Under the pieces are notes generated by a model that was not told the origin of the DNA, searched no databases, and worked only from the letters and a program-made list of their open reading frames with translations. Shown piece after piece: positions 6,669 to 46,825 of a DNA stretch of 64,000 nucleotides. Where the stretch lies: positions 434,001 to 498,000 of the forward strand of contig NZ_JAJJMN010000002.1 of the NCBI RefSeq assembly GCF_020905335.1, written 5' to 3'. The position numbers and the translations under genes were made by a program. This DNA comes from Flavobacterium lipolyticum. Lineage in GTDB: Bacteria > Bacteroidota > Bacteroidia > Flavobacteriales > Flavobacteriaceae. Within the stretch, counting starts at the first letter, position 1. The number at the start of each line of letters is the position of its first letter.

Positions 6669-9600
6669 ATGAAAAACTTTACTCCAAAAAGCTTCAATTT
6701 TCTTAAGCCTGTCTTTTTACTTTTTTTATTAGGCATTTCTTATCAACTGGAAGCACAGACTTGTGCCGGGCTTAATTCCATCTATCAAACCAGAGGAGGG
6801 ACTGGAACTACAGTAAATATATTTGAGTATAATTTGCCATTACAGCGGTTCAATGCCTTAAGTACTTCCGTTACTACGGGAATTACCTCTGGAGCTGCTT
6901 CGGCTTACAATTCTAACACAGGATATTTGTATATCAATGGTGATGGTACTGATCCATTACATGATGTTAGGGTTTTTGATCCGGCCGCTGGCTTTGGCTA
7001 TGTAGGAAAGATTAGCCTTAATTTAATGGGGACACAAGATATTTATGCCAATATGTTTTCAAGAGGTGACTATATCTATTTCAGGGATGAGGCGAAGAAT
7101 ATTCTAACAAGATTTAATGTCAATCAGCCTTTTGTCGGAGGAGTTTTCAGCGTTAATGTTGAACAGATACCACTTACGAATAACATGGGAGGAGCCTATT
7201 CGGCCAATGATTATACGTATTATAACGGAAAATTTTATGGAATTGCAGGAAAAGGAACTAGTCCACGAACAGAGTGTTTTTTAATTATTATCGATGAAGT
7301 TGCTCAAACTCTTGAGAGCAGAGTATTGAAGCTGACAGATTCTAATGTTTCCCATAGGTTCGGGAATACCATTGGAAATGATTTTGGTGCAGTTTGGATT
7401 GATTCCAAAGGTGTCATGATGTTTTTTAATAATGATACGGGAAATGTTTACTTACTTAAAGATGTAGATCTTCCGGGATCAACTAATATTAACTGGGTTC
7501 TTCCATCCAATACCTCGTCCGATAATGACGGGTTTGGATGTGAAAGTATCGATTTGTTCACGCCTATTATAGCCATAGGAGGTATTTGTTCTCTGCCTGG
7601 TACGGCGACTATAACGAACTACTTGAATAATGCAAGTGAATACGAATATAGATTTTATGAATATCCTAGTGGAACTCCGGTTAGCGGTGTAACAACTTCA
7701 TCAGCGGGAGTAATAAGCGGGTTAAATTACAATCAGGCTTATACCGCAGCTTTATATATTATTGGGGCTGATTATACTTCGAGCCCGTCAGAAGTTTTTA
7801 CAATTCCAAGTATTACAGGACCAACTGCTGATGCAGGTTCCGATTTTACTAAAAACTGTACGATAAATGTTACGGGGAAACAAATTGGAATGGTAGCAGA
7901 GCCTGGAGTTACTTATTCCTGGTCTCCCTCAACTGGATTAGATTTTAATAGTCCGTATTCCAGTTCAAATCCATTTGCGAATCCATCAGTAACAACAACT
8001 TATGAGTTAACGACGACGAAATCAGGTTGTTCTAAAACAGATACGGTAGTTGTTACAGTAGATACAACTCCACCGGCAACTCCGATAGTAACCGTAGTAA
8101 ATAATTGTGGTAATTCTGTACTATCAACAACGGCTCTGGGTACATTGTTGTGGAGCAATGGGCAAACGGGTTCAAGTATTACGGTGACTGATTCAGCAAC
8201 TTATACCGTAACGACAACAGCTGCTAATGGTTGTGTGAGTGCAGCTGGAAGCGGTGTTTCGGCACCAAACGCGAACCCTGCAGCACCAACGGCCAGTGTA
8301 ACGGTTCAACCAGACTGTTTAACTCCAACAGGAACCATTGTAGTTACCGCTCCGGCTCCTGCGGCTAATGTGACTTATACCGTAACAGGTACCGCTCCGG
8401 TAACTCCTGCGGTGACACGGTCTACGACTACCTTTGCCAATTTGGCTCCGGGTACTTACGCCGTAACGACCACTAATACCACTACAGGCTGTGTTTCGTT
8501 ACCTACCAATTTAACCATCAATGCCGTTCCGGGTAACCCTGCAGCGCCAACAGCCAGTGTAACGGTTCAACCAGACTGTCTAACTCCAACAGGAACCATT
8601 GTAGTTACAGCTCCGGCTCCTGCGGCCAATGTAACGTATACTGTAACGGGTACCAGTCCGGTAACCCCTGCGGTAACGCAGTCTACGACTACCTTTGCTA
8701 ATCTGGCTCCGGGTGCTTATGCCGTAACGACCACTAATACCACTACAGGCTGTGTTTCATTGCCAACGAATTTAACCATCAATGCCGTTCCGGGTAACCC
8801 TGCAGCACCAACGGCCAGTGTAACGGTTCAACCTGATTGTTTAACCCTTACGGGTACCATTGTAGTTACAGCTCCGGCTCCTGCGGCCAATGTGACTTAT
8901 ACTGTAACGGGCACCAGTCCAGTAACCCCTGCAGTGACACAGTCTACGACTACCTTTGCCAATTTAGCTCCTGGTACTTACGCCGTAACGACCACTAATA
9001 CCACTACAGGCTGTGTTTCATTGCCAACGAATTTAACCATCAATGCCGTTCCGGGTAACCCTGCAGCGCCAACAGCAAGTGTAACGGTTCAACCAAACTG
9101 TTTAACTCCAACGGGTACCATCGTAGTTACCGCTCCGGCTCCAGCGGCCAATGTGACTTATACCGTAACAGGTACCAGTCCAGTAACTCCTGCGGTGACT
9201 CAGTCTACGACTACCTTTGCCAATTTGGCTCCGGGTACTTATGCCGTAACGACCACTAATACTACTACAGGCTGTATTTCGTTACCTACCAATTTAACCA
9301 TCAATGCCGTTCCGGGTAACCCTGCAGCACCAACGGCCAGTGTAACGGTTCAACCTGATTGTTTAACCCTTACGGGTACCATTGTAGTCACAGCTCCGGC
9401 TCCTGCGGCCAATGTGACTTATACTGTAACGGGCACCAGTCCAGTAACCCCTGCAGTGACACAGTCTACGACTACCTTTGCCAATTTGGCTCCTGGTACT
9501 TATGCCGTAACGACCACTAATACTACTACAGGCTGTGTTTCGTTACCAACCAGTTTAACCATCAATGCCGTTCCAGTTCCACCAGTAGCGCCAACCGCAA

Positions 9601-12600
9601 GTGTAACGGCTCAGCCAGACTGTTTAACCCCTACGGGTACCATAGTAGTTACAGCACCGGCTCCTGCAGCCAATGTAACGTACACCGTAACGGGTACCAG
9701 TCCGGTGAGACCTGCGGTAACGCAGTCGGGTACTACTTTCGCCAATCTGGCTCCGGGTACTTATGCCGTAACGACCACTAATACCACTACAGGCTGTGTT
9801 TCATTGCCAACGAATTTAACCATCAATGCCGTTCCGGGTAACCCTGCAGCGCCAACAGCCAGTGTAACGGTTCAACCTGACTGTTTAACTCCAACAGGAA
9901 CTATCGTAATTACCGCTCCGGCTCCTGCGGCTAATGTAACTTATACTGTAACGGGCACTAGTCCGGTAACTCCTTCAGTGACAAAGTCTACGGCTACCTT
10001 TGCCAATCTGGCTCCTGGTACTTATGCCGTAACGACCACCAATACCACTACGGGTTGTGTTTCATTGCCTACAAATCTAACCATCAATGCCGTTCCGGGG
10101 AATCCGGTAGCACCAACTGCGAGTGTAACGGTTCAACCAGACTGTTTGACTCCAACAGGCACCATTGTAGTTACTGCTCCGGCTCCTGCGGCTAATGTGA
10201 CTTATACCGTAACAGGTACCAGTCCAGTAACTCCTTCGGTGACACGGTCTACGACTACCTTTGCCAATCTGGCTCCGGGTACTTACGCCGTAACGACCAC
10301 TAATACCACTACAGGCTGTGTTTCATTGCCAACGAATTTAACCATCAATGCCGTTCCGGGTAACCCTGCAGCGCCAACAGCCAGTGTAACGGTTCAACCT
10401 GACTGTTTAACTCCAACAGGAACTATCGTAATTACCGCTCCGGCTCCTGCGGCTAATGTAACTTATACTGTAACGGGCACTAGTCCGGTAACTCCTTCAG
10501 TGACAAAGTCTACGGCTACCTTTGCCAATCTGGCTCCTGGTACTTATGCCGTAACGACCACCAATACCACTACGGGTTGTGTTTCATTGCCTACAAATCT
10601 AACCATCAATGCCGTTCCGGGGAATCCGGTAGCACCAACTGCGAGTGTAACGGTTCAACCAGACTGTTTGACTCCAACAGGCACCATTGTAGTTACTGCT
10701 CCGGCTCCTGCGGCTAATGTGACTTATACCGTAACAGGTACCAGTCCAGTAACTCCTTCGGTGACACGGTCTACGACTACCTTTGCCAATCTGGCTCCGG
10801 GTACTTACGCCGTAACGACCACTAATACCACTACAGGCTGTGTTTCATTGCCAACGAATTTAACCATCAATGCCGTTCCGGGTAACCCTGCAGCGCCAAC
10901 AGCCAGTGTAACGGTTCAACCTGACTGTTTAACTCCAACAGGAACTATCGTAATTACCGCTCCGGCTCCTGCGGCTAATGTAACTTATACTGTAACGGGC
11001 ACTAGTCCGGTAACTCCTTCAGTGACAAAGTCTACGGCTACCTTTGCCAATCTGGCTCCTGGTACTTATGCCGTAACGACCACCAATACCACTACGGGTT
11101 GTGTTTCATTGCCTACAAATCTAACCATCAATGCCGTTCCGGGGAATCCGGTAGCACCAACTGCGAGTGTAACGGTTCAACCAGACTGTTTGACTCCAAC
11201 AGGCACCATTGTAGTTACTGCTCCGGCTCCTGCGGCTAATGTGACTTATACCGTAACAGGTACCAGTCCAGTAACTCCTTCGGTGACACGGTCTACGACT
11301 ACCTTTGCCAATCTGGCTCCGGGTACTTACGCCGTAACGACCACTAATACCACTACAGGCTGTGTTTCATTGCCAACGAATTTAACCATCAATGCCGTTC
11401 CGGGTAACCCTGCAGCGCCAACAGCCAGTGTAACGGTTCAACCTGACTGTTTAACTCCAACAGGAACTATCGTAATTACCGCTCCGACACCTGCGGCTAA
11501 TGTGACGTATACTGTAAGAGGTACCAGTCCGGTGAGACCTGCAGTGACACAGTCTACGACTACCTTTGCCAATCTGGCTCCGGGTACTTATGCCGTAACG
11601 ACCACTAATACTACTACAGGCTGTGTTTCATTGCCTACAAATCTAACCATCAATGCCGTTCCGGGGAATCCGGCAGCACCAACGGCCAGTGTAACGGCTC
11701 AGCCAGACTGTTTAACCCCTACGGGTACCATAGTAGTTACAGCACCGGCTCCTGCGGCCAATGTGACTTATACCGTAACAGGTACCGCTCCGGTGAGACC
11801 TGCGGTGACACAGTCTACGACTACCTTTGCCAATCTGGCTCCGGGTACTTATGCCGTAACGACCACCAATACCACTACAGGCTGTGTTTCATTGCCTACA
11901 AATCTAACCATCAATGCCGTTCCGGGTAACCCTGCAGCGCCAACGGCGAGTGTAACGGTTCAACCAGACTGTTTAACTCCAACAGGAACTATCGTAGTTA
12001 CCGCTCCGGCTCCTGCGGCTAATGTAACTTATACTGTAACGGGCACTAGTCCGGTAACTCCTTCAGTGACACAGTCTACGGCTACCTTTGCCAATCTGGC
12101 CCCGGGTACTTACGCCGTAACGACTACCAATACCACTACAGGCTGTGTTTCGTTACCAACCAATTTAACCATCAATGCCGTTCCAGTTCCACCAGTAGCA
12201 CCAACCGCAAGTGTAACGGATCAGCCAGACTGTTTAACCCCTACGGGTATCATAGTAGTTACAGCACCGGCTCCTGCAGCCAATGTAACGTACACCGTAA
12301 CGGGTACCAGTCCGGTGAGACCTGCGGTAACGCAGTCGGGTACTACTTTCGCTAATCTGGCTCCTGGTACTTATGCCGTAACGACAACCAATACCACTAC
12401 AGGCTGTGTTTCATTGCCTACAAATCTAACCATCAATGCCGTTCCGGGTAACCCTACAGCGCCAACAGCCAGTGTAACGGTTCAACCTGACTGTTTAACT
12501 CCAACAGGAACTATCGTAATTACCGCTCCGGCTCCTGCGGCTAATGTAACTTATACTGTAACGGGCACTAGTCCGGTAACTCCTTCAGTGACACAGTCTA

Positions 12601-15600
12601 CAACTACCTTTGCCAATTTGGCTCCTGGTACTTATGCTGTAACGACCACCAATACCACTACAGGCTGTGTTTCGTTGCCTACGAATTTAACCATCAATGC
12701 TGTTCCGGGTAACCCAGTAGCACCAACGGCGAGTGTAATCGTACAACCTGATTGTTTAACTCCAACGGGAACCATTGTAGTTACTGCTCCGGCTCCTGCG
12801 GCCAATGTGACTTATACCGTAACAGGTACCGCTCCGGTGAGACCTGCGGTGACACAGTCTACGGCTACTTTTGCCAATCTGGCTCCGGGTACTTATGCCG
12901 TAACGACCACTAATACTACTACAGGCTGTATTTCGTTACCTACCAATTTAACCATCAATGCCGTTCCGGGTAACCCTGCAGCACCAACGGCCAGTGTAAC
13001 GGTTCAACCTGATTGTTTAACCCTTACGGGTACCATTGTAGTCACAGCTCCGGCTCCTGCGGCCAATGTGACTTATACTGTAACGGGCACCAGTCCAGTA
13101 ACCCCTGCAGTGACACAGTCTACGGCTACCTTTGCCAATCTGGCCCCGGGTACTTACGCCGTAACGACTACCAATACCACTACAGGCTGTGTTTCGTTAC
13201 CAACCAATTTAACCATCAATGCCGTTCCAGTTCCACCAGTAGCACCAACCGCAAGTGTAACGGATCAGCCAGACTGTTTAACCCCTACGGGTATCATAGT
13301 AGTTACAGCACCGGCTCCTGCAGCCAATGTAACGTACACCGTAACGGGTACCAGTCCGGTGAGACCTGCGGTAACGCAGTCGGGTACTACTTTCGCTAAT
13401 CTGGCTCCTGGTACTTATGCCGTAACGACAACCAATACCACTACAGGCTGTGTTTCATTGCCTACAAATCTAACCATCAATGCCGTTCCGGGTAACCCTA
13501 CAGCGCCAACAGCCAGTGTAACGGTTCAACCTGACTGTTTAACCCTTACGGGTACCATTGTAGTCACAGCTCCGGCTCCTGCGGCCAATGTGACTTATAC
13601 TGTAACGGGCACCAGTCCAGTAACCCCTGCAGTGACACAGTCTACGACTACCTTTGCCAATCTGGCTCCGGGTACTTATGCCGTAACGACAACCAATACC
13701 ACTACGGGTTGTGTTTCATTGCCTACAAATCTAACCATCAATGCCGTTCCGGGGAATCCGGCAGCACCAACGGCCAGTGTAACGGCTCAGCCAGACTGTT
13801 TAACCCCTACGGGTACCATAGTAGTTACAGCACCGGCTCCTGCGGCCAATGTGACTTATACCGTAACAGGTACCGCTCCGGTGAGACCTGCGGTGACACA
13901 GTCTACGGCTACTTTTGCCAATCTGGCTCCGGGTACTTATGCCGTAACGACCACCAATACCACTACAGGCTGTGTTTCCTTGCCAACGAATTTAACCATC
14001 AATGCCGTTCCGGGTAACCCTGCAGCGCCAACGGCGAGTGTAACGGTTCAACCAGACTGTTTAACTCCAACAGGAACTATCGTAGTTACCGCTCCGGCTC
14101 CTGCGGCTAATGTAACTTATACTGTAACGGGTACCGCTCCAGTGACTCCTGCAGTGACACAGTCTACGGCTACCTTTGCCAATCTGGCCCCGGGTACTTA
14201 CGCCGTAACGACTACCAATACCACTACAGGCTGTGTTTCGTTACCAACCAATTTAACCATCAATGCCGTTCCAGTTCCACCAGTAGCACCAACCGCAAGT
14301 GTAACGGATCAGCCAGACTGTTTAACCCCTACGGGTATCATAGTAGTTACAGCACCGGCTCCTGCAGCCAATGTAACGTACACCGTAACGGGTACCAGTC
14401 CGGTGAGACCTGCGGTAACGCAGTCGGGTACTACTTTCGCTAATCTGGCTCCTGGTACTTATGCCGTAACGACAACCAATACCACTACAGGCTGTGTTTC
14501 ATTACCAACGAATTTAACGATCAATGCCATTCCAGTTCCACCAGTAGCGCCAGTGGTAACTGTTGTTGATAATTGTGATGGCACATCTACTTTGTCAACT
14601 ACAGCTTTAGGTTCTTTATTGTGGAGCAATGGAGCGACAACATCAAGTATCACGGTATCTATAGCTGGGACGTATAGCATTACTGCTACTGTTAACGGTT
14701 GCACAAGTCTTGCCGGTTCGGGTGTGGCTACACCAAGAATAACACCAAGAGCTTTTGAGATAACACGTTTACAACCAAACTGTACAAGAACAAGTGGTAC
14801 TATTACCATAAAAATTCAAAATGCAGGCGATACTTATAGTTTTGATAACGGTAATACTTTTAGCGCAAATAACATTAAAGAAGGACTTGCAGCAGGGACT
14901 TATCTTGTGATTGTAAGAAGTGCTTTGGGTTGTCAATCAGAAGCAGTGCCCATTACGATAAGTAATAGTGAATGTCCGGGTATTGCTATTATAAAAAAAT
15001 CACAATTTGTAGATGAAAATCAGGACGGATATGTACAAGTTGGGGAAACTATTAGATATAGTTTTGAAGTTAAAAATACAGGTAACACACCTTTAACCAA
15101 TGTAATGGTAACGGATAATTTACTAGGATTAGTTTTGTCCGGAAGCCCAATTAATTTAGGGATTGGCGAAATAAACACTACAAATTTTAGCGGTGTTTAT
15201 CGCATTACTCAGGCCGATATTGATTTTGGATCGGTTGTTAATCAGGCTATGGCAGAGGGAACAACTCCTTCTAATACTAAAGTTAGTGATCTTTCTGATG
15301 ATAACAGCTTCTTAGAAAATGATCCTACTATTCTCGCCATACAAGACTGTAATGTTGAAGTATTCAACGCTGTTTCTCCAAATTCAGATGGAATTAATGA
15401 TGAGTTTCTTATTAAAGGTTTAACATGTTACCAGAATAATACAGTTGAAATTTATAACCGTTGGGGAGTTAAAGTATTTGAGACAACTAATTATGGTTCT
15501 AATGAGAATTTTTTCAGAGGTTATTCAGATGGCAGAACAACAATTTCCAGAAATGAGAAATTACCGGATGGAACTTATTTCTATATTCTAAAGTATGTTG

Positions 15601-30187: not shown

Positions 30188-30188
30188 C

Positions 30189-30201
30189 TTCACGTTATTT
30201 T
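30189..30201 (+). repeat. Isolated copy of the 14-bp array repeat
   Basis: TTCACGTTATTTT is a 13-base exact match to the repeat that forms the 44-bp-period array at 37931-38076, in the same orientation. It overlaps the integrase stop and directly follows the terminator. Confidence 0.6.
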
Positions 30202-31342
30202 ATTTTAAACTTATCCTCAAAGAAGCTTCTCTCTTCTTCTCATCAATTATTTTTGTGTATATCTGCGTAGTTTTTACACTCTTGTGACCAAGCATTTTAG
30301 AAACAGTAAAAATATCAGTTCCTGAGAATATCTGCAATGTTGCATAAGTGTGTCGAAAACAATGGAATGTAATATGTTTTGTAATTCCAGCTAGAGCAAT
30401 CCAAACAGGCAGTACTCTATCTACGTCCCATTTTTTTAAACCTTCAAATACTTTGTCATCTTCATTTGTTCTTTCGCCAAGGATTTCAAATGCCTCGTTT
30501 GAAATAGGCATAGTCTGAAGTCCTTCAGTTTTCTTTTGCTTAAATCTGATATAAAATCCGTCATCTTCCATATATTGGACTTCAGACCATGTAAGTTTGG
30601 CTATGTCTGAATATCGAAGCCCAGTCAATGTAGAGAACATAGAAATATTATACACAATCATATTTGAACATGGCGTTGCGAATAATTTCTTGGCTTCACT
30701 AAGTGTTAAAAAATTTCGCTGTGATTCCTTTTCTTTAATAGAATCAATTCCTGAATTAATATCATTTCTTAATTTTCCTTCTTTATAAGCTCTTTTAAGA
30801 GTAGTCTTAAGTTTGTTGTGATAGGAAAGGGCAGTATTTTGAGATAATGTTTCTCCTGTATTTCTTCTGCTTTTAGCTTTTAAGAGATATTCTTTAAAAT
30901 CATTCATCAGTATTACTGTCGTATTTTTAAAGCTAATATCTTGGTTTATAAGGAATGCTTCAAAGTGTGCTATAGCGCTATTCCAAATCTGCCTGTTGTT
31001 ACCTTCTTTTCTATCAGCAAAATTTTTGAAATACTCCAGAAATGATCCTCGTCCAATTCTTTTAAACTCCAGTTGCTCTTTCTCAAATTCAGAATATATA
31101 TCATCTTTACGAAGTTCATTTTGTCTGCGAATGTGAATTAATTCGGCCGTATGAAGATTCTCAATATTTGCGATCTTTTGAATTTGATTCTTTGGCTTTT
31201 GAAAAATATATATTTTTAGGAATTCCCGTCTTGTAAGCTTGTTTGTTTCAGTGTTCAGCAACGGCGGATAAAAATCCAGGTAAAGTGATATTTTTCCTTT
31301 TGAGATCACTTTTTTTCTTAATGATACATTAATCTTTTTCAT
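30200..31342 (-). CDS. Tyrosine recombinase (integrase), second copy in the region
   Basis: 380 residues with the Bacteroidota layout: an N-terminal arm-binding domain (about 1-85), a SAM-like core-binding domain (about 100-200) and a catalytic domain (about 212-370). Catalytic residues are visible: Arg in TGLRYSDI (243), His and Arg in HCFRHT (327, 330), His in LGHKS (353) and Tyr in QIYTKI (362). It overlaps by four bases the HTH/zinc-finger gene upstream, which implies co-expression. It is related to, but clearly different from, the integrase at 48160. It may belong to an older element placed in tandem beside the 17-kb element. The left end of that older element is not clear. Confidence 0.92.
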   Translation of the reverse strand: MKKINVSLRKKVISKGKISLYLDFYPPLLNTETNKLTRREFLKIYIFQKPKNQIQKIANIENLHTAELIHIRRQNELRKDDIYSEFEKEQLEFKRIGRGSFLEYFKNFADRKEGNNRQIWNSAIAHFEAFLINQDISFKNTTVILMNDFKEYLLKAKSRRNTGETLSQNTALSYHNKLKTTLKRAYKEGKLRNDINSGIDSIKEKESQRNFLTLSEAKKLFATPCSNMIVYNISMFSTLTGLRYSDIAKLTWSEVQYMEDDGFYIRFKQKKTEGLQTMPISNEAFEILGERTNEDDKVFEGLKKWDVDRVLPVWIALAGITKHITFHCFRHTYATLQIFSGTDIFTVSKMLGHKSVKTTQIYTKIIDEKKREASLRISLK

Positions 31343-37426: not shown

Positions 37427-37813
37427 GGAGCTATAAAATGGCTCCAAGAAGACTAAAATTAATAATCTTTATGTCATAAGTTTGCACTTATTTCAAGCTA
37501 ATATAGGAAATATCTTTATTTAATTTATAGCTACTTATAGATAAAATATACCAATTATTTATATAGTATATTTTTAAAATTAAGCCATATTTTTAAAGCG
37601 AAGCGTGGGTAGAATTATTACGAAAGAGATAAACGAAATATTTATAAAAAAGTCCGAAAAAGAATTGCTTTAAAAGTTAGAATATAAAAAAATCCTACCG
37701 AAGTAGGATTTAAAATATAGTTACTTAAAGTATAGGCCTATAATCATTAATGCTAGCACAAAAAATAACCCAAGTAACCATTTAATCATTTCAGTTTTTG
37801 TATTTGCGAAATC
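37427..37813. repeat. Leader module, copy 2 (upstream of the HNH-like gene)
   Basis: The partner of 36157-36535. It contains GGAGC...GCTCC, the shared AT-rich blocks, a UUCG-loop terminator and most of an intact small TM gene. The duplication encloses the HNH-like gene, so recombination between copies could delete or swap it. Confidence 0.8.
37690..37711 (-). terminator. UUCG-loop terminator in leader copy 2
   Basis: On the minus strand AAATCCTAC, loop TTCG, GTAGGATTT, then seven T. It lies ten bases after the stop of the small TM gene. Confidence 0.85.
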
Positions 37814-37861
37814 TTCTTTTGATGCTAAATATCTAGTACTCTTTTTTATCTTTTTATTCAT
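37721..37861 (-). CDS. Small single-TM protein, 46 residues
   Basis: ATG at 37859-37861, stop at 37721-37723. The protein starts MNKKIKKSTRYLASKEDFAN, then TKTEMIKW, and ends in one membrane helix (LLGLFFVLALMIIGLYFK). It has an intact relative at 38534-38680 and a truncated one at 36436-36540, and each lies directly upstream of a cargo gene on the same strand. The conserved pattern (RxL.S/T-K/R-E/Q-D then a helix) and repeated position argue that it is a real gene despite its size. It could be a membrane sensor, toxin or antitoxin; nothing in the sequence decides. Confidence 0.65.
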   Translation of the reverse strand: MNKKIKKSTRYLASKEDFANTKTEMIKWLLGLFFVLALMIIGLYFK

Positions 37862-37930
37862 TTAAGAGTTGATTTGGTAGTTATAATTTTATTTTTTTTA
37901 ATTCCACGAGTGCAAATGTGCATCCTTTAA

Positions 37931-38076
37931 TTTCACGTTATTTTTGATTGGCCAGCTGTAAGCGCTTTTTGTGTTTTCACGTTATTTTGCCTTTATGCAG
38001 CTCGTCCCTGGTTCTCATTTTAACGTTGTTTTGTGCATTTGAAGAAAGGATCCGGAACAGGTTTTCACGTTATTTT
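37931..38076 (+). repeat. Short-repeat array: four 14-bp repeats at exact 44-bp period
   Basis: Repeats TTTCACGTTATTTT at 37931, 37975 and 38063 and TTTAACGTTGTTTT at 38019. The three 30-bp spacers (37945-37974, 37989-38018, 38033-38062) are unrelated to each other and have about 47-53 percent GC in a region near 30 percent. The 44-bp period is not a multiple of three, so this is not a protein repeat. Downstream, CGTGAAA (38112-38118) is complementary to the repeat. CCATAAC / GTTGTGG (about 38124-38141) forms a hairpin followed by five T, so a plus-strand transcript could end there. No cas genes are in the window. Confidence 0.75.
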
Positions 38077-38242
38077 CTTATCCATTTAAACAATTCTTTT
38101 CATAGATTCAGCGTGAAAAATCACCATAACCCATGTTGTGGTTTTTGTTCTGCACTAAATTCCCAAGCAATCATCTTTTAAGAACATTATTTAGGACTTG
38201 CTCAGTCCAAATAATTTGTATCATAAATTATACTCAACATAC

Positions 38243-38512
38243 TTATTTGAAGTGTTTAGAGAATCTTGATTTTATTTTTGCCATCGCTTGTTCGTGAGAA
38301 TGTACTCTGCCATTTGCAACATCATCGAAAGCTTCATCTAATGCATTAAGTTCAGGCATCGGATGTTTTTTGTCTTCATAATCTTTAACTAATAAACATA
38401 AAATTTTTAGTTCATCATCTTCGGGAGTATTAGGTTCAGCGTGAAAGATTTCAATCATTCTTTTAACTGCTTTTACGTGCTCTTCTTCTGTTTTTATTGC
38501 TTTCCAGTTCAT
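38243..38512 (-). CDS. Antitoxin-like small protein
   Basis: 89 residues. The first part (MNWKAIKTEEEHVKAVKRMI, then EIFHAEPNTPEDDELKILCL) matches the N-terminal helical part of HigA-type antitoxins. The end (FDDVANGRVHSHEQAMAKIK) resembles the C-terminal toxin-binding tail seen in several type II antitoxins. The HTH normally found in HigA is absent, and no toxin gene is adjacent: upstream is a small TM gene (21 bases away), downstream the short-repeat array. It may be an orphan antitoxin or one whose partner is the small TM protein. Confidence 0.6.
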   Translation of the reverse strand: MNWKAIKTEEEHVKAVKRMIEIFHAEPNTPEDDELKILCLLVKDYEDKKHPMPELNALDEAFDDVANGRVHSHEQAMAKIKSRFSKHFK

Positions 38513-46141: not shown

Positions 46142-46825
46142 TTAAAAACCTCCTATTTTATCATTTGTTTGATTTGGATTCAATGAGATTACTTGGGTAT
46201 CGTATTTTGATTGGTTATCAATCCAATTTCGCGCGTACTTTTTAAAACGACCTGAAATCACACTTAAATCCAATTTTAATTTTTCTTGCTCAACGGTTGC
46301 ATCAAACATTTCCGTGAACTTGACAAAGTCATTAATTTGATTTTTATATTGCATCAGAACTTCGAATTGAGAAGGATAATTTTCTTCTAAAAAAGAGAGA
46401 GCGGTTTCTTCTCTATTCACTGTATTATTAATTGTATTATTCATCCTTATATTAGAAGTGACTTTTTTGTCACTAGGTATTGACTTTTTAATCACTAGGG
46501 TAGTGCTTTTTTTGTCACTAGGTCGTGACCTTTTTGTCACTAGGTTATTCCTAGAATTTGATAAAAATATTTGGCGCTTGTTTCCGTCATTTTTAAAAAC
46601 TTTAAGAGAAATATATCCCCTTGAAACAAGCTGTGAAATCCATCTAGAAATTGTTTTATGATTAACTTTATATAATCCTGCAAAATAATCGTTCCTAGCC
46701 CAGCAAAACCCGTCGCGATTACACAATGCAGTTATTTCTCCATACAATAATTTTGCATTTGGCTTTAACTTTTCATCATAACGGACATTAGCTGGAATGA
46801 TGGCGAAAAAATTAGGTTGTTCCAT
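46142..46825 (-). CDS. Replication initiator-like winged-helix protein with embedded iterons
   Basis: 227 residues. The first 75 residues (FFAIIPANVRYDEKLKPNAK, LLYGEITALCNRDGFCWARN, then HKTISRWISQLVSRGYISL) follow the winged-helix pattern of RepA_N-type and related initiators. The middle (about 95-130) is a low-complexity basic stretch with repeated SDKK and LVTKR/LVIKK blocks, encoded by the 21-bp repeats at 46457-46544. The C-terminal half is helical (FKKYARNWIDNQ), like DnaD-type ends. RepA_N plasmid initiators carry their origin inside the rep gene, which matches the repeat position here. The DnaB-type helicase gene follows immediately. Confidence 0.75.
   Translation of the reverse strand: MEQPNFFAIIPANVRYDEKLKPNAKLLYGEITALCNRDGFCWARNDYFAGLYKVNHKTISRWISQLVSRGYISLKVFKNDGNKRQIFLSNSRNNLVTKRSRPSDKKSTTLVIKKSIPSDKKVTSNIRMNNTINNTVNREETALSFLEENYPSQFEVLMQYKNQINDFVKFTEMFDATVEQEKLKLDLSVISGRFKKYARNWIDNQSKYDTQVISLNPNQTNDKIGGF
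46457..46544. repeat. Four 21-bp iteron-like repeats inside the rep gene
   Basis: Copies at 46457, 46479, 46502 and 46524, consensus AGTGACTTTTTTGTCACTAG plus a final G, spaced 22, 23 and 22 bases. Each contains an internal dyad, GTGAC-TTTTTT-GTCAC (perfect in the first copy). The array is a candidate initiator-binding site or origin. Confidence 0.8.

Follow-up and report, generated by a model that had tools for sequence, protein, structure and literature searches.

A phased repeat array with restriction-site-rich spacers in Flavobacterium lipolyticum as an orphan copy of a gp16-linked module of small phages

The window, i.e. the whole 64,000-nt stretch of Flavobacterium lipolyticum DNA analysed here, contains a short array of 14-bp direct repeats between a 46-aa small membrane-protein-like gene (37721..37861, minus strand) and an 89-aa gene assigned to PHROG 10398, of unknown function (38243..38512, minus strand). 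The repeat TTTCACGTTATTTT was found at 37931, 37975 and 38063 and a variant with two changes, TTTAACGTTGTTTT, at 38019, giving the four copies with an exact 44-bp period that a first-pass annotation of this DNA had described. All four lie on the minus strand in the sense of the gp16 genes introduced below: R1 (37931..37944), which in that sense reads AAAATAACGTGAAA, R2 (37975..37988), the altered R3 (38019..38032) and R4 (38063..38076). The spacers between them have a GC content of 0.473, compared with 0.267 for approximately 2 kb on either side, in agreement with the same annotation, which had also called them unrelated. The latter was correct in so far as S1, S2 and S3 could not be aligned to one another, but it overlooked a common vocabulary of palindromic restriction sites, namely TGGCCA (37949-37954), CAGCTG (37953-37958) and AGCGCT (37961-37966) in S1 (37945..37974), AGCT (37999-38002) and CCTGG (38007-38011) in S2 (37989..38018), and GGATCC (38048-38053, including GATC) and TCCGGA (38051-38056, including CCGG) in S3 (38033..38062).

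Several smaller features adjoin the array. Ahead of R4 in the gp16 sense lies a short flank, ATGGATAAG (38077..38090, minus strand), which resembles the end of the gp16 gene on a gp16-bearing contig (TTGGATTAAAAA in L049) and could conceivably be a remnant of such a gene. A 19-nt fragment (38103..38121, minus strand) is 89% identical to part of the adjoining 89-aa gene, and a similar flank accompanies the copy of the array in F. collinsii. On the other side, a flank with GTGCAAATGTGCA (37901..37930) is common to copies L046 and L047. The hairpin with a T-run noted earlier downstream of the repeats was also recovered, as a terminator-like element on the plus strand (38123..38142); a scan around the block gave two terminator-like sites in 2 kb against 0.5 ± 0.7 in shuffled sequences. 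Inspection of the block edges by eye for a duplication, as expected of an attachment site, revealed none.

The exact 14-mer occurs three times in the 5.77-Mb genome, each time within the block, which exceeds chance, and allowing one mismatch adds 12 copies outside it (15 matches in all). One of these, CTTCACGTTATTTT at 30188-30201 of the window, is located directly behind the stop of a tyrosine recombinase gene (30200-31342), in the same orientation to that gene as the array repeats have to gp16, an arrangement that may be due to chance. From their translations, we take the surrounding genes to be part of an integrated mobile element with a putative relaxase, DnaB-like helicase and tyrosine recombinase, and an AbiTii protein was recognised by Pfam on the same putative element. 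A search of this genome for gp16 returned none at E up to 0.1, which makes the block an orphan copy; a decayed partial copy of the block is present elsewhere in the same genome.

Homologous blocks were readily found in other members of the genus. Among 299 Flavobacterium genomes, 12 were matched: the block together with its spacers was present in G004, G187, G159 and G276 (80–86% identity over the matched part), and seven genomes gave short weak matches only; a scan for paired repeats around four of these seven (L039-L042) revealed no array. A pattern search covering 84,980 species, each represented by one genome, produced 11 loci, of which eight were real and all from Flavobacterium (F. tructae, F. 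potami, KMS, three from F. frigidimaris, F. plurextorum and F. collinsii). Pattern matches outside the genus (L043; L048, L052 and L053) proved on inspection to be T-rich simple repeats and were dropped. With the block of locus L054 as query, 12 of 398 genomes were matched at E ≤ 0.001, and seven were accepted (G000, G004, G159, G187, G235, G276 and G396, with G235 divergent); three matches (L062, L063 and L065) were inspected and taken as short chance matches, and two further matches, L064 and L066, lie outside the accepted and inspected sets. The draft genome G374, of the same species as the window, gave no match to this query.

The order of units, S1-S2-S3 or S2-S3, was constant across nine aligned family copies occupying differing genomic contexts. 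R2 was the same in all nine, S1 was also present in L044, L046, L047, L049, L050 and L054, and copies L045, L051 and L060 begin at R2. In L067 (genome G396) one unit has been deleted, leaving an S2/S3 hybrid spacer and a 43-bp spacing. In L054 (389-931) the stop codon of what we read as a traO-like gene directly precedes the array, with no gp16 gene between the two.

The likely source of the array became apparent from the divergent genome G235 (locus L070), in which two divergent arrays lie inside a 7.2-kb prophage whose capsid protein shares 39% identity with its counterpart in phage phiCjT23. This prophage is bounded by 28-nt direct repeats with 89% identity (L070 5006-5033 and 12252-12279) that appear dif-like in our reading, and dif integration is described for such prophages in the accessible text of the phiCjT23 paper (PMC9719478). 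One of the two arrays is directly behind an 80-aa gene. Homologues of this gene were found in three more genomes and on L049, a plasmid-like F. frigidimaris contig of 8 kb, each directly followed by similar repeats with other spacers. By tblastn, the 80-aa gene is the last gene of the ssDNA phage FLiP, ORF16/gp16, annotated as a hypothetical protein. The FLiP genome itself has an array directly 3′ of gp16, and the first two of these repeats recur in the FLiP-2 record, just ahead of its end. L049 bears gp16 and has the same repeat, the same S1-S3 and the same 44-bp period as the window block; the end of its array that corresponds to R4 overlaps the gp16 stop codon.

In another genus, a gp16 homologue (L080/L138) is accompanied by six repeats whose motif differs (GATAACAAAA and variants). 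A further locus, L148/L150, was located after the hypothesis had been set down and carries the expected array of three repeats spaced 54 and 44 bp, the first over the stop codon and the second degenerate and positioned by eye, with two CTGCAG, one CCWGG, one CCGG and no GATC. Collectively, repeats follow gp16 in all eight bona fide loci read as DNA; the first repeat overlaps the stop codon in seven of them and lies just before it in L138. Two elements, the G235 prophage and contig L136, have a second array with no adjoining gp16, so that ten arrays are available in total. The second array of L136 (3083-3195 of a 3.4-kb contig) has kept its spacing and a GAGTTG/CAACTC stem and is without CTGCAG, GATC and CCGG. 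The array repeat that we propose as the gp16 target is AATAACGT. Eleven of 37 aligned gp16 homologues (81 were found in the database) end in IT, LT or MT, as expected if the stop codon sits inside a repeat ending in ACGTGA.

Genome searches with profile A3 (80 + 199 genomes) added one true locus, L148; scans of viral contigs with the gp16 alignment returned FLiP alone, and none was found in plasmid records. A FLiP-type capsid gene is present in 26 loci, some of them cut by contig ends; two of these contain gp16, and just one, the gp16-bearing L070, has a 120-bp stretch with four of the four-word sites (GATC, CCGG, CCWGG and CTGCAG); six other best stretches among gp16-less prophage loci were read, none of them an array. 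Weak gp16 matches L081-L084, L143 and L149 had no array on inspection and were set aside as outside the family, and four more, L139-L142, fall outside the inspected set. Two of the former, L143 and L149, represent a separate small protein family (MIKKSTYIRSFT..) with a weak match to the gp16 profile.

These data provide good support for the window block as a gp16-type array in orphan form, belonging to a module that small phages and a plasmid-like element of Flavobacteriaceae carry. In this module, which is equally well supported, a gene encoding a probable DNA-binding protein of ~80 aa is followed by three to six repeats at approximately whole helical turns, separated by site-rich spacers. 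A row of recombinase sites gained by stepwise insertion, one of the early proposals for this locus, finds no support, the unit order being constant in nine copies and the same architecture recurring behind gp16 genes in phages.

Repeat spacing was highly restricted. The 24 repeat-to-repeat distances in the ten arrays (eight behind gp16 and two second arrays) take values of only 31, 43, 44, 54 and 55 bp, and a helical phase as good as this was reached by 72 of 20,000 sets in which five distances were drawn at random. Such near-whole-turn spacing points to double-stranded DNA with protein on one face. In a predicted structure (pLDDT 92), the N-terminus of FLiP gp16 is extended and is followed by a 14-residue helix and then a long one, which is probably the topology of a ribbon-helix-helix (RHH) monomer with a coiled-coil tail. 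The best Foldseek rows for the monomer model were mostly RHH or similar DNA-binding proteins, including NikR, ArtA, CopG, FitA and ParD, but with E values of 1.7 and above, leaving the RHH fold probable and no firmer; Pfam gave no family above cut-off for the gp16 homologues. The earlier suggestion of a row of regulator sites is thus supported in part, by the spacing and by the position of eight of the ten arrays directly behind the gene for a small protein of RHH-like topology.

Spacers were strongly enriched in palindromes. In 22 spacers (720 bases, window copy excluded, with those of L138 cut at approximate repeat bounds), palindromic 4-mers numbered 54 against 32.8 ± 4.6 and palindromic 6-mers 26 against 9.0 ± 2.8, counts that were reached in 0 of 2000 dinucleotide shuffles in either case. 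With single-base shuffles, 51 of 2000 reached the 4-mer count and none the 6-mer count. Five-base palindromes with a free centre were not enriched as a class (38 versus 43.4). Among all strand-pooled 4-mers, CCGG and GATC ranked highest when the 792 bases of 24 spacers were compared with the 60,633 bases that make up the remainder of these elements, and palindromes with four GC bases were enriched 9.2-fold while four-GC non-palindromes stood at 1.0. Counts inside and outside the spacers were 11/50 for GATC, 11/31 for CCGG, 12/12 for CCWGG and 10/6 for CTGCAG, corresponding to densities 17, 27, 77 and 128 times those of the remaining sequence, with the reservation that related arrays and overlapping sites make these counts non-independent. 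Six non-palindromic control words had observed/expected (O/E) ratios of 0.55–1.03 outside and 0–5 copies inside.

Each array has roughly one each of GATC, CCWGG, CCGG and CTGCAG. For instance, both genomic CTGCAG sites of FLiP fall inside its 114-bp array, and the sole GATC, CCGG, CTGCAG and CAGCTG in the 8000 bases of L049 are all in the array. The window block has one GATC, one CCGG, one CCWGG and no CTGCAG, i.e. three of the four words of gp16-type arrays. All nine family copies have one GATC, one CCWGG and one CCGG, and six have one CTGCAG; the usual place of this word is in S2, where the window copy reads ATGCAG, and in L060 (G276) it has been lost from S2 and one is present in S3. Departures from the consensus in the nine copies affected 12 of 288 cells at sites, 47 of 431 at other spacer positions and 13 of 369 in R2-R4. 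Seven of 36 site positions were variable, compared with 23 of 54 other spacer positions (p = 0.025 in Fisher's test, on related rows; 5 of 89 mask shifts were as low). The low departure at sites and the relocation of CTGCAG in L060 suggest, on weak statistics, that the sites themselves are what is maintained. Unlike the repeats themselves, sites showed no clear helical phase relative to the repeats (R about 0.2, n = 54) and their order varied between arrays, which does not favour a second protein docking at fixed places.

Avoidance of several of these words was evident outside the arrays. In 21 of 26 capsid-bearing prophage loci of the FLiP/phiCjT23 type (inner 5.6 kb of each), the O/E ratio was 0.13 for GATC (0.60 in host flanks), 0.23 for CCWGG (1.49), 0.44 for CCGG (1.85), 0.13 for GGCC (1.39) and 0.92 for CTGCAG (2.67). 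FLiP-type prophages avoid GATC, CCWGG and CCGG, three of the four array words. The prophage with the largest array, of six repeats (L138, 7132-7360), showed no avoidance of these three words against its own composition; its GATC count was 27 with 27.1 expected, and its host flank was denser (28 with 14.9 expected).

From the observed conservation, gp16 linkage, phasing, enrichment and avoidance, we infer a mechanism in which gp16 holds the array as a lure for restriction enzymes; we favour it tentatively as the most likely one. Dimers of gp16 would bind the repeats on one DNA face, and their coiled coils would hold the array clamped in a compact nucleoprotein knot. Restriction sites would remain exposed in short loops, so that enzymes of many specificities could be drawn to one prepared spot, where they might bind without a productive cut, or where cut ends might be held together and resealed. 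More broadly, the idea that gp16 and its phased array form a protein-clamped site catalogue that baits or senses host restriction-modification, a DNA decoy used in counter-defence, seems to us evenly balanced between right and wrong. The window copy would have been captured onto the integrated mobile element without gp16, and may be a relic or a site served by gp16 in trans. Since its repeats are intact except R3, it is possibly still gp16-competent; we speculate that it could bind the gp16 of an incoming phage, maybe as a host-side decoy for gp16.

A number of observations weigh against a lure. CTGCAG and AGCT occur in arrays though overall they are not avoided (O/E of 0.92 for the former, and of 1.13 and 0.86 for the latter in two counts), and GGCC, CGCG and CTAG are seldom or never seen in arrays despite being below expectation. 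Host flanks, too, fall short of the expected GATC count. The L150 element avoids GATC (1 observed, 30.9 expected) but has none in its array, and CCGG is present in the array though not avoided (16 observed, 8.3 expected); the second array of L136 (L136B) has lost most of its sites. Finally, most array-bearing elements still avoid sites outside the array, so any protection would be incomplete, and the L138 prophage, which has the richest array, lacks avoidance when judged by its own composition, though sites are denser still in its host flank.

RHH proteins are known to act at parC or plasmid operators, ParR/parC being the combination of an RHH protein with centromere repeats. The present module resembles such systems in that a mobile element encodes a small RHH-like protein next to direct repeats in helical phase, and an array bound by gp16 for partition, repression or termination, with the spacer palindromes serving a second dimeric factor or a structural role and their restriction likeness a by-product, is a serious if rather unlikely contender. 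The RHH-like topology, the order of gene then array and the helical phasing all agree with it, as do the position of the L049 array just before a parA gene on a plasmid-like contig and a recurrent GATC-T-tract-CCWGG motif in several spacers, which could reflect common descent or a protein site. FLiP is also reported, in the accessible text of PMC13269007, to be present in some cells as a circular dsDNA element. However, here the repeats come at the gene's 3′ end (across the stop codon in seven of eight loci) and the spacers are packed with restriction sites, whose identity, order and position differ among arrays, with no clear helical phase. Three of the enriched words are strongly depleted in related prophages, which a second operator would not predict, and no parA is named in the FLiP annotation, though most FLiP genes are hypothetical.

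Improbable, in our estimation, is a methylation sensor, in which the array offers about one site per common methyltransferase and gp16 reads host modification to tune replication, latency or expression. It would account for the roughly single copy of each site per array and for their rarity elsewhere in most elements, but the sites lie between the repeats, not on them, and at any phase, and we know of no link of these sites to gp16 binding. Still harder to credit is a sacrificial cut site, at which a cut in a spacer is mended when the flanking direct repeats anneal, with loss of one unit and its sites: the shortened L067 with its hybrid spacer and the three copies that start at R2 would fit, while the retention or gain of sites and the helical phasing are left unexplained.

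The guide-RNA array first proposed for this locus, or a CRISPR-like one, can hardly be correct: short direct repeats with unique spacers of constant length, and a CRISPR-DR5 match below threshold (23.5 of 40 bits, E 2.5) at 37676-37715, 215 bp from the block, speak for it, but S1-S3 are conserved across several Flavobacterium species with no turnover, the outcome that the first-pass annotation had itself named as refuting it, neither the block nor its spacers matched any of 50,697 phage and 72,556 plasmid records (in which those very near the window genome are possibly absent), the block gave no Rfam match at E up to 5, the repeats are only 14 bp long at a spacing that tracks helical turns, and no cas genes were noticed nearby.

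Loss of restriction sites in phages is well known. A small DNA-binding protein beside phased repeats would alone be ordinary; the novelty lies in the site content of the spacers, of a sort that we know from no other system. FLiP-type ssDNA phages, other small prophages and a plasmid-like element have shed several sites almost everywhere, yet roughly one copy of each has been kept in a regular array that is linked to a small protein dedicated to it, gp16. Restriction-site avoidance is described for phages (PMC6286503) and plasmids (PMC10359461), where, in the accessible texts, the selective pressure is the same and the words are similar; here, unlike in plain avoidance, the avoided sites are gathered in one place, which goes beyond mere loss. 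The words 'cluster' and 'decoy' have no occurrences in the main text of PMC6286503. In the open-licence literature, a search for such arrays, clustered sites or restriction decoys found only an account of IncP-1β plasmids (PMC3590792), in which restriction sites are likewise grouped on a mobile element, between Tra1 and Tra2, as possible insertion hotspots; the accessible part of that account has no phased repeats or partner protein. FLiP gp16/ORF16, which we identify as the partner protein of these arrays, features in the accessible texts of the phiCjT23 paper (PMC9719478), with prophage hits to gp16 and its position after the replication gene, and of the FLiP-2 paper (PMC13269007); searched on repeats and restriction, the main texts of both make no mention of the array.

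Should the array act on restriction enzymes, it would represent a new class of DNA-based counter-defence; should it read methylation, it would be a host-state sensor. The hypothetical ORF16 of FLiP gains a probable binding site, as judged from sequence, and since FLiP is a cultivable phage, either function is directly testable.

Other repeated sequences were seen in the same material. On L049 (1-3300), a 94-nt promoter-like sequence occurs in six dispersed copies before small cargo genes, which suggests a cassette-like gene array. In the window, a 22-bp unit (AGTGACTTTTTTGTCACTAGGT) is repeated four times in tandem at 46457-46545, and a 261-bp unit 24 times in tandem (86% matches) at 8274-14533, perhaps encoding a repetitive surface protein.
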